A stretch of 64,000 nt of DNA from contig NZ_WLZY01000008.1 in NCBI RefSeq assembly GCF_010122465.1, positions 1 through 64,000 on the forward strand, read 5' to 3'. Below are positions 5,645-45,417 of this stretch, in pieces (the stretch's first letter is position 1; the number at the start of each line of letters is the position of its first letter). Under the pieces are notes generated by a model. It saw only the letters and a list, made by a program, of their open reading frames with translations, did not search any database and was not told the DNA's origin. The stretch is from Phytoactinopolyspora mesophila (lineage in GTDB: Bacteria > Actinomycetota > Actinomycetes > Jiangellales > Jiangellaceae). The translations under genes were made by a program, and so were the position numbers.

Positions 5645-5733
5645 GGTGATCGTCAGTGGGTTGTGGTCGCTGTGAGGTGATCGTCAGTACGCCGTGGTCG
5701 TGGGACTACGACCACGGCGTACTGACGATCACC
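5645..5733. repeat. Intergenic palindromic repeat cluster, copy B
   Basis: Three copies of the 25-bp motif (GGTGATCGTCAGT, one variable base, then a CG-rich half ending GTGGTCG). Copies at 5645 and 5676 are direct and 31 bp apart. The second pairs perfectly over 25 bp with an inverted copy at 5709-5733 around an 8-nt loop. The cluster lies 43 bp beyond the stop codon of the ROK gene. No gene is seen in the rest of 5406-5775 apart from the promoter at 5515-5543. Confidence 0.9.
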
Positions 5734-19928: not shown

Positions 19929-20017
19929 GGTGATCGTCAGTGCGTTGTGGTCGCTGTGGGGTGATCATCAGTACGCCGTGGTCGTTGGGTTACGACCACA
20001 ACGCACTGACGATCACC
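19929..20017. repeat. Intergenic palindromic repeat cluster, copy C
   Basis: Direct copies at 19929 and 19960 (31 bp apart) and an inverted copy at 19993-20017. The first copy is an exact 25-bp complement of the inverted copy, while the middle copy pairs with it imperfectly. So two alternative hairpins are possible. The stop codon of the phosphodiesterase gene (20013-20015) lies inside the repeat. Confidence 0.9.
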
Positions 20018-28312: not shown

Positions 28313-29418
28313 TTGGTGATCCGGCCATGGTGACCCGCACCGCCCAGGCTCCGGCCGATGCCGAGCTCGCGCACGACACGCTGCTGTCCGTGCGGAACCT
28401 GAAGACACATTTCGCCCTTGACCAGGGCCTGGTCAAGGCGGTCGACGGCGCCAGCTTCGACGTCCGCCGGGGCAAGACGCTGTGCGTCGTGGGCGAGAGC
28501 GGGTGCGGCAAGAGTGTCACCGCCCGGTCGATCCTGCAGATCGTCGACCGGCCGGGCCGCGTCGTCGGTGGTCAGCTGTTGTTCCGCAAACCCGGGCGCG
28601 GGCCCGGAGGGCAGGAGGAGGTGGTCGATCTCGCGACAATGAACCCGAAAGGTGCCGACATCCGGTCGATCCGCGGCCGGGACATCGCCATGATCTTCCA
28701 GGAGCCGATGTCCTCGCTGAGCCCGGTGCACACCATCGGCAACCAGATCGTCGAGGCGGTCCACCTGCACGAGAACGTATCCAAGCAGGCGGCCAAGGAC
28801 CGCGCCGTCGACGTCCTGCAGAAAGTCGGCGTGCCGAAGCCGAAGCAGCGCTTCGACTCGTACCCGTTCCAACTGAGCGGCGGACTACGGCAGCGGGCCA
28901 TGATCGCCATGGCGCTGGTCTGCAACCCCACACTGCTCATCGCGGACGAACCGACGACGGCGCTGGATGTCACCACCCAGGCGCAGATCCTGGAGCTGAT
29001 GCGTGAGCTGCAGGACGACTATGGCATGGCGATCATGTTCATCACTCATGACCTGGGTGTGGTGGCCGAGCTCGCCGACGACGTCGTCGTCATGTATCTG
29101 GGTCTCGCGGTGGAACGCGGCGACGTCGTCTCGGTCTTCCACGATCCGCAGCATCCGTACACCCGCGCCTTGCTGCGGGCAATCCCGAAGGTGGGCGGTG
29201 GCACCCGGGCCAGGCTGGACACGATCCGCGGCATGGTGCCCGACCCGTACAACCGGCCCGACGGGTGCCCCTTCCACAACCGGTGCGACGACTACATGCC
29301 CGGCTCGTGCGACCGGGTCGTCCCACCACCGATCGATCTCGCCGACGACCGTCAGGTGCGCTGTCTACTGCACGGCGGCGCGGACGATGTGGTTCCCGGA
29401 AACGGAGAGGTGCGATGA
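28309..29418 (+). CDS. ABC transporter ATPase (DppD/OppD-like)
   Basis: 369-aa ATPase. Walker A is GESGCGKS, the Q-loop [11 protein letters not shown], the signature LSGGLRQRA (with L in place of the usual Q/E), Walker [14 protein letters not shown], and the switch His is in FITHDLGVV. The C-terminal oligopeptide-transporter region has Cys residues in [15 protein letters not shown] and CLLHG, which fit the iron-sulfur or zinc site seen in this family. ATG 28309 is coupled to the upstream stop (ATGA); ATG 28327 is an alternative with no better ribosome site. Confidence 0.9.
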
Positions 29419-30464
29419 GCGTGGCCGGTGATGCCCAGCGGAAACGTGTCCTGCTCGACGTCAAAGACCTCCAGCTGCACTTCCCGATCCGGCACGGCTT
29501 CCTGCGCCGCACCATCGGGCACATACGCGCGGTGGACGGGCTTGACTTCTCCATCCGCGAAGGTGAGACGCTCGGGCTCGTCGGCGAATCCGGATGTGGC
29601 AAGACGTCCACCGGCCGCTGCATCGTGCGCTCACACGACCCCACCGGCGGGCAGATCCTGTACCACCGCGACGGATCTGAGCCGGCTGACATCGCGGCGG
29701 TGCACGGAAACGCGCTCAAGCCGTACCGTCGCGAGATCCGGATGGTCTTCCAGGATCCGCAGTCTTCGCTCAACCCGAGGATGACACTGCAAGACATCAT
29801 CGGTGAACCGCTGAAAGCCCATGGTGTCGCATCCGGCAGCGAACTCGAGGACCGAGTGGCCGCGCTGCTGCGCGACGTGGGACTGCGCCCGGAATACCGC
29901 AGCCGCTACCCGCACGCGTTCTCCGGTGGTGAGCGGCAGCGAGTCGGGATCGCCCGCGCGCTGAGCCTGGACCCCAGGCTGGTGGTGGCCGACGAAGCGG
30001 TGTCCGCACTCGATGTCTCGGTACGGGCGCAGATCCTGAACCTGCTGCAGGATCTGCAGGCCGAGCACCACCTGACCTACCTGTTCATCTCGCACGACCT
30101 GTCTGTCGTGGAGTATCTCTGCGACCGGGTAGCGGTCATGTACGTCGGCAAGATGGTCGAGATGGCCGACACTGCCGCGCTTTTCACCCGGCCGCGGCAT
30201 CCGTACACCGAGGCGTTGCTGTCCGCGGTGCCCAAGCCGGACCCGTTGCTGCGCGACCGGCGCGAGCGGATCGTGCTCTCCGGAGACGTCGCCGACCCGT
30301 CCGACCCACCCAGCGGCTGCTACTTCCACCCCCGCTGCCGGTATGCCCAGCCGATTTGCGCCGAGGAACAGCCGCCGCTGCGCGACGTCGGCGACGGCAC
30401 TACCACCGCATGTCATTTCGCCGAGGAGCTCAACCTGCGCGGCGTCGCCACCCCCGCTTCCTAA
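29415..30464 (+). CDS. ABC transporter ATPase (DppF/OppF-like)
   Basis: 349-aa partner ATPase. Walker [10 protein letters not shown]-loop [12 protein letters not shown], signature FSGGERQRV, Walker [14 protein letters not shown] (Ala where Pro-Thr is usual, as in many DppF), switch His in [10 protein letters not shown], and the C-terminal Cys-containing segment [21 protein letters not shown] lies 4 nt before ATG 29415, which also overlaps the upstream stop. It is the last gene of the transporter operon; the next 600 bp are non-coding. Confidence 0.93.
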
Positions 30465-30598
30465 ATGTGGCGCTTCGGTCGTGTCCGTGGCTGGGTCGGG
30501 TGTTGTGGCACATGTCCGAGCCCTTTGGGTATGGGTGGCGTGCCTGCTCGAACCGCCAGGGCCGCTGGGCTGCTCGGGCGGCCAGCGGGCCGGGCGCC

Positions 30599-30880
30599 GG
30601 CGGCCGGTCGTGGTTCACACGACGAGCTTCACGACCGGTGTGTGCCTACTCGTGTGAGTTCTAACGGCGTATAGCGGCATTGGCTGGCACGACGATCTTC
30701 ACGACCCCGCATACCGCCCCGGCGGCCGGTCGTGGTTCACACGACGAGCTTCACGACCGGTGTGTGCCTACTCGTGTGAGTTCTAACGGCGCATGGCGGC
30801 ATTGGCTGGCACGACGATCTCCACGACCCCGAATACCTCCCCGCCGACCCGTCGTGGTTCACACGACGATCTTCACAACC
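30599..30880. repeat. 122-bp tandem repeat (about 2.3 copies) with an embedded 19-bp motif
   Basis: The stretch beginning GGCGGCCGGTCGTGG at 30599 recurs at 30721, and its core again at 30851, each offset by exactly 122 bp. A motif close to CACGACGAnCTTCACGACC appears five times (30618, 30688, 30740, 30810, 30862) with alternating spacing of 70 and 52 bp. It sits in the 619-bp gene-free gap 30465-31083. The small frames that cross it have no homology I recognise. Confidence 0.9.
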
Positions 30881-31002
30881 AGCGGCAACCACCCCGCGAA
30901 CAGGGCACACCACAGCTGGACCCCGCCGAAAGCCCCCGGGGGAACAACGCGCCTGCAGCGGCCTCCCATGAACTCACCCACGGATAGGTCACCAGAGCCC
31001 TA

Positions 31003-31088
31003 AATGATCATGTTTGGTGGGTTCTCTCGTGCGTCACCATGGCTGCAGGCATGGTGACGCACGAGAGAACCCACCAAACATGATCATT
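31003..31088. terminator. Perfect 38-bp inverted repeat between convergent units
   Basis: Arms 31003-31040 and 31051-31088 are exact complements over 38 bp around a 10-nt loop. The stop codon of the AraC gene (31084-31086) is inside the right arm. It separates the ABC operon from the AraC gene, so it most likely ends transcripts from both sides. Confidence 0.85.
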
Positions 31089-31905
31089 CGGATGGACGGG
31101 GATGGGACCGGACTTTGGGGAGGTCGGCCCGGAACCGTGACGGCGGAACGCCGAACACTTCCTTGAACCGGCGCGAGAAGGCGTACTCGTCGTAGAAGCC
31201 GAGTTCTCGCGCGATCGCGCGGATGGTCCAGCCGCCCTGCTGGAGCATCCTTGCCGCCTCGTCCATCCGGCGCCGGTTGCGCCAGCGGCCTGGTGATTCG
31301 CCCGCTATCTCGGCGAATCGTTTGCGGAACCGCTCGTAGGGCAGCCCCACCGCCGCCGCGACCCCGGTCAAATGCAGCGCCGGCTCGTGAGCCAACAACA
31401 GGCATGCCTCTTCGAACCACGACGAAGACTCCGTCGTCTTCTCGCCCGCACCGGCATGCACGGCGGCGAGCAACACCTGCAGCCGCGACCATTCGATCAG
31501 CGCGCAGCGCGCACCGCCCGGCACAGGGTCGGTCACCCCGGCTACCAGCGGCAACCATGCCTCTACCGGGGATAGATTGCCCACCGGGCGGGAACGGTCG
31601 AGAATCCCGCGTTCTTCGAGCAGCCGAGGCAGGGCGCCGTCGAACAGGATGTACCGCTCCGTCCAGCTCTCCCCCGGCCCCGGGCCGTAGTCATGTTCGA
31701 GGCCGGGAAATACGACGACGACGCTGCCGGCGCCGAGCCGGTGCTCAGCACCGTTCTCGTCCCGGTACCGGCCGCTGCCGCTGACCAGATAAACCAGCGC
31801 GTACACGTCCAAGATCCTGGAGCCGCCCAGGCCGGCACCGTCGGCGATCGCCCCGGCGTACAGAACCCGGCCGAGCGAGGCGTCGTCGCCTGCCCCACGG
31901 ACCAC
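31084..31905 (-). CDS. AraC family transcriptional regulator
   Basis: 273-aa regulator. The N-terminal half is a cupin-like sensor (VYLVSGSGRYRDENGAEHRLGAGSVVVVFPGLEHDY, about 38-73) and the C-terminal half an AraC double helix-turn-helix (LTGVAAAVGLPYERFRKRFAEI and IRAIARELGFYDEYAFSRRFKEVFGVPPSRFR). The start is uncertain: GTG 31905 has no clear ribosome site, and the frame stays open upstream toward the dioxygenase stop at 31941. The two genes lie 35 bp apart and are probably cotranscribed, so the dioxygenase may be its target. The ligand is unknown. Confidence 0.88.
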   Translation of the reverse strand: MVRGAGDDASLGRVLYAGAIADGAGLGGSRILDVYALVYLVSGSGRYRDENGAEHRLGAGSVVVVFPGLEHDYGPGPGESWTERYILFDGALPRLLEERGILDRSRPVGNLSPVEAWLPLVAGVTDPVPGGARCALIEWSRLQVLLAAVHAGAGEKTTESSSWFEEACLLLAHEPALHLTGVAAAVGLPYERFRKRFAEIAGESPGRWRNRRRMDEAARMLQQGGWTIRAIARELGFYDEYAFSRRFKEVFGVPPSRFRADLPKVRSHPRPSE

Positions 31906-45328: not shown

Positions 45329-45417
45329 GGTGATCGTCAGTACGTTGTGGCTGCGAACCCGCAACCACAACGTACTGACGATCACCCTAAAGCGACCGCA
45401 GCGTACTGACGATCACC
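45329..45417. repeat. Intergenic palindromic repeat cluster, copy D
   Basis: GGTGATCGTCAGTACGTTGTGG at 45329-45350 (written here as two adjoining blocks, GGTGATCGTCAGT and ACGTTGTGG) pairs perfectly over 22 bp with 45365-45386. A second direct copy of the right arm ends at 45417, again 31 bp on. The cluster lies 8 bp past the stop codon of the FadR gene. Confidence 0.9.

Follow-up and report, generated by a model that had tools for sequence, protein, structure and literature searches.

A dispersed 19-bp motif family in Phytoactinopolyspora mesophila and its association with a gene for a predicted AbiEi-Vsr-type nuclease fusion

The analyzed window, a stretch of 64,000 nucleotides from Phytoactinopolyspora mesophila, contains a 122-bp tandem repeat which is one member of a dispersed repeat family typified by a 19-bp motif (M, CACGACGATCTTCACGACC). 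In several genomes the motif is associated with a gene whose product is predicted to combine a DNA-binding half with a nuclease half. We consider it probable that M belongs to a family whose repeats are spread by this AbiEi-nuclease partner, with the capture of M in a 531-bp element, as seen in the window, forming a second layer.

The tandem array and the dispersed motif

The array stands out in the window, with 2.3 copies of the 122-bp period (93% matches, no indels) and a Tandem Repeats Finder score of 498, the second-ranked tandem array scoring just 97. This bears out the original prediction of a 122-bp repeat in which five copies of a 19-bp motif alternate in spacing, as the motif starts at 30618, 30688, 30740, 30810 and 30862 give intervals of 70/52/70/52 bp (Table 1). 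Three of the five copies fit CACGACGAnCTTCACGACC exactly, while those at 30810 and 30862 carry one change each, and the sequence GTCGTGGTT was likewise recovered directly before the copies at 30618, 30740 and 30862. The small hairpins also predicted are unremarkable, in that 60 of 200 shuffled sequences match or surpass the 122-nt unit in folding (z -0.47). By eye, GATC is the only palindrome within M, and a GTAG end is lacking.

Table 1. Coordinates of the array, the inserted element and their surroundings in the window
Feature	Position	Strand	Basis or remark
Upstream gene, presumably an oligopeptide ABC transporter ATP-binding protein	29265..30464	+	longest frame, true start further in
Left copy of 8-bp flanking repeat, CTAAATGT	30461..30468		holds stop codon of upstream transporter gene
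531-bp inserted element with array; ends GGCGCTTC... and ...AGAGCC	30469..30999	+	ends common to relatives in the same genome
Left terminal inverted repeat, consensus GGCGCTTCTGTCGTGTCCGTGGGTGG	30469..30494	+	imperfect; P. mesophila loci compared by eye
122-bp tandem array, 2.3 copies	30597..30880	+	Tandem Repeats Finder
Motif M (19 bp), copy 1	30618..30636	+	motif scan
Motif M, copy 2, exactly the family consensus	30688..30706	+	TATAGCGGCA upstream at 30670
Motif M, copy 3	30740..30758	+	motif scan
Motif M, copy 4, one change	30810..30828	+	motif scan
Motif M, copy 5, one change	30862..30880	+	motif scan
Right terminal inverted repeat, minus strand GGCTCTGGTGACCTATCCGTGGGTGA	30974..30999	-	P. 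mesophila loci compared
Right copy of 8-bp flanking repeat, CTAAATGA	31000..31007		7 of 8 bases as in left copy
84-bp palindrome of another dispersed family, element inserted at its edge	31004..31087		-51.5 kcal/mol, z -16
Downstream convergent gene, AraC-family regulator	31084..31905	-	Pfam HTH_18, AraC_binding
Copies of palindrome family GGTGATCGTCAGT...	1-72, 5645-5733, 19929-20017, 45329-45386		same family flanks a paralogous nuclease gene

The original prediction proposed a search for the motif elsewhere in the genome, and such a search, allowing up to two mismatches, recovered 78 places in the 6.5-Mb P. mesophila genome (G000) versus 1 for the reversed control; with up to one mismatch there are 53 places. 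This confirms that the five-motif array is real and not a product of chance. Six of the 78 lie alone outside the arrays, with two mismatches each, and are possibly background; the remaining ones form about 20 loci situated in gaps between called genes, two of them overlapping the end of a called gene, and several hold other motif arrangements, including inverted copies. The number of 122-bp units differs between loci, with about three at L021 and one each at L016 and L018, and slippage or unequal recombination is probably behind the local doubling of the unit in the window. To this extent the earlier suggestion of replication slippage is likely to be true for local copy number; as the whole story it is refuted by the recurrence of the motif at some 20 distinct loci and outside the genus, and we assign it next to no probability in that form.

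A neighboring gene common to the arrays was sought and rejected, as the largest cluster among 400 called genes covers only 6 of 56 loci. At L021 (G000 C4:493000-502000) an M array follows, at a distance of about 120 bp, a gene of roughly 1370 codons whose product has an MTES_1575 domain, which may be a coincidence. With genes called by a crude GC-position method, the 19 M loci with a called gene on both sides comprise 9 convergent, 9 co-directional and 1 divergent gap, versus 40, 114 and 52, respectively, among 206 reference gaps of 100-1000 bp from a sample of the genome. Convergent gaps are thus enriched (9/19 vs 40/206, P 0.009) and divergent ones avoided (1/19).

Beyond P. mesophila, M at up to one mismatch is present in few genomes (7 of 60, P. 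mesophila included). In addition to the 53 places of the latter, there are 170 in G009 (MAG DX1.bin79), 7 in G007, 5 in G004 (Phytoactinopolyspora alkaliphila, a member of the same genus of the Jiangellaceae), 4 in G008 (the Jiangellaceae MAG Co-bin20), 1 in G005 and 1 in a more distant genome. Its distribution is patchy even within the genus, with three of the four other species lacking it. A scan of 84,980 species genomes for exact M recovered 75 stretches, in which all those with multiple matches come from MAG DX1.bin79, and the single-match ones from P. alkaliphila (2), MAG Co-bin20 (3), Brachybacterium halotolerans (2) and other organisms (1 each). No exact M was found in viral contigs, and no plasmid or phage relatives of the 401 bp around the array were recovered. 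The single M-like match of G005 (L051, C59) lies close to a GTGGAGTTTCCGC sequence; the nuclease homolog of that genome (L262, C43) is flanked by this sequence as well.

The copies in G009 are particularly informative regarding what is conserved. Their basic unit consists of two inverted copies of M, separated by exactly 33 bp in all 21 pairs (from 20 stretches). Across the pairs M is 96-97% identical and the spacer 47% (26% when shuffled). Strong conservation is seen in M alone, with weaker signals close by. An exact CTATAG was counted by eye in 6 of the 21 spacers; the same hexamer occurs 15 times in 0.8 Mb of the P. mesophila genome. Eleven substitutions affect one arm only and two affect both, i.e. 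the arms do not covary, a pattern better explained by recognition of M itself than by base pairing. Around the arrays of G009 the signal of target duplication is at best a weak one (lowest P 0.009, at k=6, among five k-mer lengths tried).

These observations bear on two further readings of the motif. One is a structured RNA or transcription terminator at gene ends, with which the avoidance of divergent and enrichment of convergent gaps would agree, as would the compensatory changes in one palindrome family of the paralogs (see below). Against this, there is no Rfam match at the gathering threshold within the window, the 122-nt unit folds like its shuffles, the substitutions in the G009 pairs are predominantly one-armed (11 vs 2), and an insertion tolerated at gene ends alone would yield an equal placement. 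We regard this reading as improbable, and the earlier suggestion that the array is a small-RNA source finds no support in the Rfam and folding results. The other is a binding array for a chromosome-organizing or regulatory protein, for which the strong conservation of M, the scattered clusters and the spacings, some of which would be near whole helical turns, might speak. To us it appears equally improbable, given that three of the four other species of the genus lack M, that the locus in the window is an insertion and that the gene between arrays in four genomes is a nuclease fusion. In its general form, the protein-binding array was still the best of the three original suggestions, in light of the contrast between the conserved 19-mer and the divergent spacers in the G009 pairs, and of the occurrence of the motif, in four species, on both sides of a gene whose product has a DNA-binding half by prediction.

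The inserted element carrying the array

In the window the array is part of a 531-bp inserted element, whose relatives in the same genome share the end GGCGCTTC... and, in inverted orientation, GGCTCT.... The 8-mers flanking the element were read by eye at 12 of 18 loci, the other 6 being without one or both recognizable ends. Three of the 12 pairs are identical, four, including that in the window, match at 7 of 8 positions, and five match at 5 or fewer. Overall 67 of 96 bases match, versus a permuted mean of 50.6 (P 0.0009); as the right end of L015 had been chosen by its match, the statistic was repeated without this locus, giving 60 of 88 (P 0.002). The orthologous site contains only a hairpin in P. 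alkaliphila and about 50 bp in G005, with no element in either, and is occupied by other DNA without M in G001 and G002. The original prediction was to fall if the motif were absent elsewhere and the array unconserved in relatives; this does not apply to the family, although neither G004 nor G005 has the array of the window at its orthologous site. The hairpin in P. alkaliphila corresponds, in diverged form, to the 84-bp palindrome at the edge of which the element is inserted. In a pool covering 1.0 Mb of the P. mesophila genome and enriched for element loci, this near-perfect palindrome occurs at 19 places, with no nuclease gene between its copies in the one pair viewed (L236).

The presence of inverted ends and 8-bp target duplications suggests that a transposase rather than a nuclease moved the 531-bp element. 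We take its ends to resemble those of the ISL3 family. The ISL3 transposase domain (PF01610) is absent from the P. mesophila genome, with 4 of 14 control genomes being positive; an autonomous partner may have been lost, or may belong to another family.

It is conceivable that nothing more is involved, with the elements being ordinary MITEs copied by an IS transposase, the motifs their passengers, and the nuclease using M only for its own regulation. AbiEi antitoxins do self-regulate via repeats at their promoters, and the inverted ends (GGCKCTT...), the 8-bp target duplications, the lack of the element at the site in G004 and G005 and the presumed likeness of the ends to ISL3 are all as this reading would have them. 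A 531-bp element with such ends and duplications is indeed like an IS-derived MITE, but unlike typical ones it carries M arrays and has no matching transposase for the one candidate family searched (ISL3). Several further observations are at odds with it: PF01610 is absent from the genome (the transposase families checked being ISL3 and Y1), G009 as the genome richest in copies is strongly conserved in M only, the array loci for the most part share no neighboring gene family (6 of 56 for the largest neighbor cluster), and the dispersed palindromes of other sequence at the paralogs described below would be left unexplained. We therefore consider it a minority possibility, though one of some substance.

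The gene flanked by M and its relatives

Between inverted copies of M the P. mesophila genome encodes a 323-aa protein (L027:4663-5634, C11), and two homologous genes are found between M elements in G007 and G009. Clear orthologs of this partner gene are present in 6 of 22 genomes of the family, namely G000 itself, G004 (68% identity), G002 (65%), G001 (62%), G009 (58%) and G007 (43%), all other matches listed having 36% identity or less. Repeats of the M type, differing from the consensus at no more than three positions, are found on both sides of the gene in G000, G004, G009 and G007, i.e. in four species from three genera. In G001 and G002 the gene is present and not flanked by M, and M at up to one mismatch is absent genome-wide. 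With presence of M taken as at least four places, a cut-off chosen after the counts were seen, the 22 genomes divide into 4 with both gene and motif, 2 with the gene only, 1 with M only and 15 with neither (Fisher P 0.009), demonstrating an association of M with the partner gene. No partner gene was found in the genome with M only (G008), the assembly of which is 75% complete. At the site that holds the partner gene in G000, which we take to be lipoprotein-YceI, G003 has only about 130 bp, representing a site without the gene. Clusters of CACACGAC/GTCGTG half-sites were observed upstream of the orthologs of the M nuclease in G002 (L158) and G001 (L159), and are perhaps a changed or decayed target; across the gene-positive, M-negative genomes the half-site pattern is at most slightly above its control (29 vs 14 and 11 vs 9).

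Pfam searches with the P. mesophila protein recovered the MTES_1575 and DUF559 nuclease domains above the cut-off and AbiEi_4 just below it; the G009 protein passes for all three, and that of G007 for DUF559 only. The MTES_1575 domain is described as a Vsr-type REase in PMC3710099. The PADLOC AbiEi models matched the P. mesophila protein with an E-value of 7e-24. In its predicted structural model (pLDDT 87), residues 18-209 superimpose on the AbiEi antitoxin 6y8q (Z 13.2, rmsd 4.8, 184 aligned residues), a match for which Foldseek gave an E-value of 2.5e-8, while residues ~209-317 superimpose on the catalytic domain of I-Bth0305I (3r3p; Z 13.8, rmsd 2.3, 96 aligned) and on Vsr (1cw0; Z 11.7, rmsd 2.6, 103 aligned). 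The match to I-Bth0305I is weak at the level of sequence (E 0.0023). E217, D248, E259 and H266 are invariant in an alignment of 12 rows (A2), with H266 varying in a 9-row alignment (A1). Accordingly, the model predicts a protein with an AbiEi-like DNA-binding half fused to a nuclease half of the Vsr/I-Bth0305I type.

A profile of nine such proteins detected homologs in 209 of 246 actinomycete genomes, often as several paralogs, with at most nine candidates per genome being scored; for P. mesophila there were nine matches, of which the eight listed ones were examined. All eight have inverted repeats in both flanks, with scores of 18-49 (scored without gaps at +1/-2, the flank windows varying somewhat from one comparison to another); the median score of 60 random genes is 10. 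Excluded, as belonging to a different protein, was the 735-aa frame of L198 (score 9), part of a larger helicase-like protein; L200 (score 10, read out of frame) was counted with L170 (score 43), both being the same gene. Among the called genes of a sample, a score of at least 17 was reached by 4 of 4 homologs versus 5 of 551 other genes, the remaining homologs having been missed by the caller or being outside the sample or near the ends of its stretches; 2 of these 5 non-homologous genes have in their flanks the palindromes of a family that belongs to another nuclease (L220).

In a comparison with one locus per genome, 16 of 30 loci had a score of at least 15, versus 6 of 150 swapped pairs. 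These 30 loci, 21 from the family and 9 from outside it, include that of P. mesophila and the four M genes; without the latter, 12 of 26 loci reach this score, as do 5 of the 9 from outside the family. No such flanking repeat was found at 14 of the 30.

The flanking repeats are mostly palindromes particular to each homolog, several of them dispersed. For four of six paralogs the palindrome occurs at 23, 10, 10 and 6 places in the 1.0-Mb pool, the two flanks included, with none for the reversed controls; for the other two only the two flanking copies are present. The family with 23 places, GGTGATCGTCAGT..., flanks the paralogous nuclease gene at C2:324076 and also has copies in the window (Table 1). 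In the one paralog palindrome family assessed for covariation, represented by six sequences, changes on both sides were seen in 6 of 21 pairs, a value reached by 0 of 500 shuffles. The palindrome centers tend to CTATAG or CATAG, and the arms differ between orthologs. At one site, presumably adjoining a glycogen-metabolism gene (the names being glgP and glgX), G000, G009 and G011 carry a homologous nuclease gene with different palindromes of a similar CTATAG/CATAG center, only the upstream palindrome being visible in G009; a homolog is also present there in G010 and absent in G004, G002 and G001. In another actinomycete family, a nuclease homolog is flanked by a AAGGGGCCCCTT palindrome (L268).

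Proposed mechanism and parallels

The best reading of this partnership is a functional analog of REPIN-RAYT driven by a homing-type nuclease. The AbiEi half would bind M, or in the case of a paralog its own palindrome, and the nuclease half would then cut in or near the repeat, with repair copying the repeat and its flanks to new places or empty sites. Such a spread would resemble that of a homing endonuclease or of a REP/RAYT pair. In P. mesophila, M would additionally have been captured within the 531-bp element with its inverted ends and 8-bp duplications, which was probably moved by a transposase, and in which the M unit would have been doubled locally by slippage or unequal recombination. 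More tentatively, and with the odds somewhat against so broad a claim, such repeat systems, selfish or domesticated, might form a general class in actinobacteria, with every family of dispersed palindromes paired to an AbiEi-Vsr fusion nuclease of its own. The nuclease would recognize the flanking palindrome and spread both the repeats and its own gene by cut-and-repair, with no transposase.

Several known systems offer partial parallels. The REPIN/REP-RAYT systems (REPtrons) similarly have short dispersed intergenic repeats, inverted pairs and a partner gene flanked by the repeats. Regular tandem arrays of REPs with an alternating 112/72-bp spacing are reported by Bertels and Rainey (PMC3116915), which constitutes a close parallel to the 70/52 array. 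In contrast to REP-RAYT, the partner here is an AbiEi-Vsr-type nuclease fusion and M is no palindrome. A RAYT as partner was rejected, with the Y1 (HUH) tyrosine transposase domain (PF01797) absent from all 22 genomes of the family and present in 5 of 14 control genomes. The TIRtrons/TIRYT, according to PMC3733652, likewise place an enzyme gene between inverted repeats, part of them belonging to dispersed families, but their enzyme is an HUH tyrosine transposase. The EDxHD (Vsr-like) homing endonuclease I-Bth0305I, treated among group I intron homing endonucleases in PMC3943268, has the predicted fold of the catalytic half, and a nuclease gene embedded in repeats recalls homing; it differs in that the DNA-binding half here resembles AbiEi and a dispersed repeat is the target proposed. 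The AbiEi antitoxins of type IV toxin-antitoxin systems share the fold predicted for the N-terminal half, but the protein described here is fused to a nuclease.

In literature searches to which subscription papers were mostly external, no paper was recovered that names both AbiEi and DUF559, that deals with DUF559 together with actinobacteria and endonuclease, or that deals with repetitive extragenic palindromic sequences together with Actinobacteria and RAYT; nor did the listed titles and abstract openings describe a repeat family with such a nuclease. The above observations point to a system of repeat spreading in actinobacteria that appears to be of a kind not yet described. If the tie of these nucleases to cognate repeats is true, it would provide a function for an abundant and unexplained protein family (209 of 246 genomes) and an origin for palindromic repeats in Actinobacteria, and would furnish a directly testable pair of enzyme and target.
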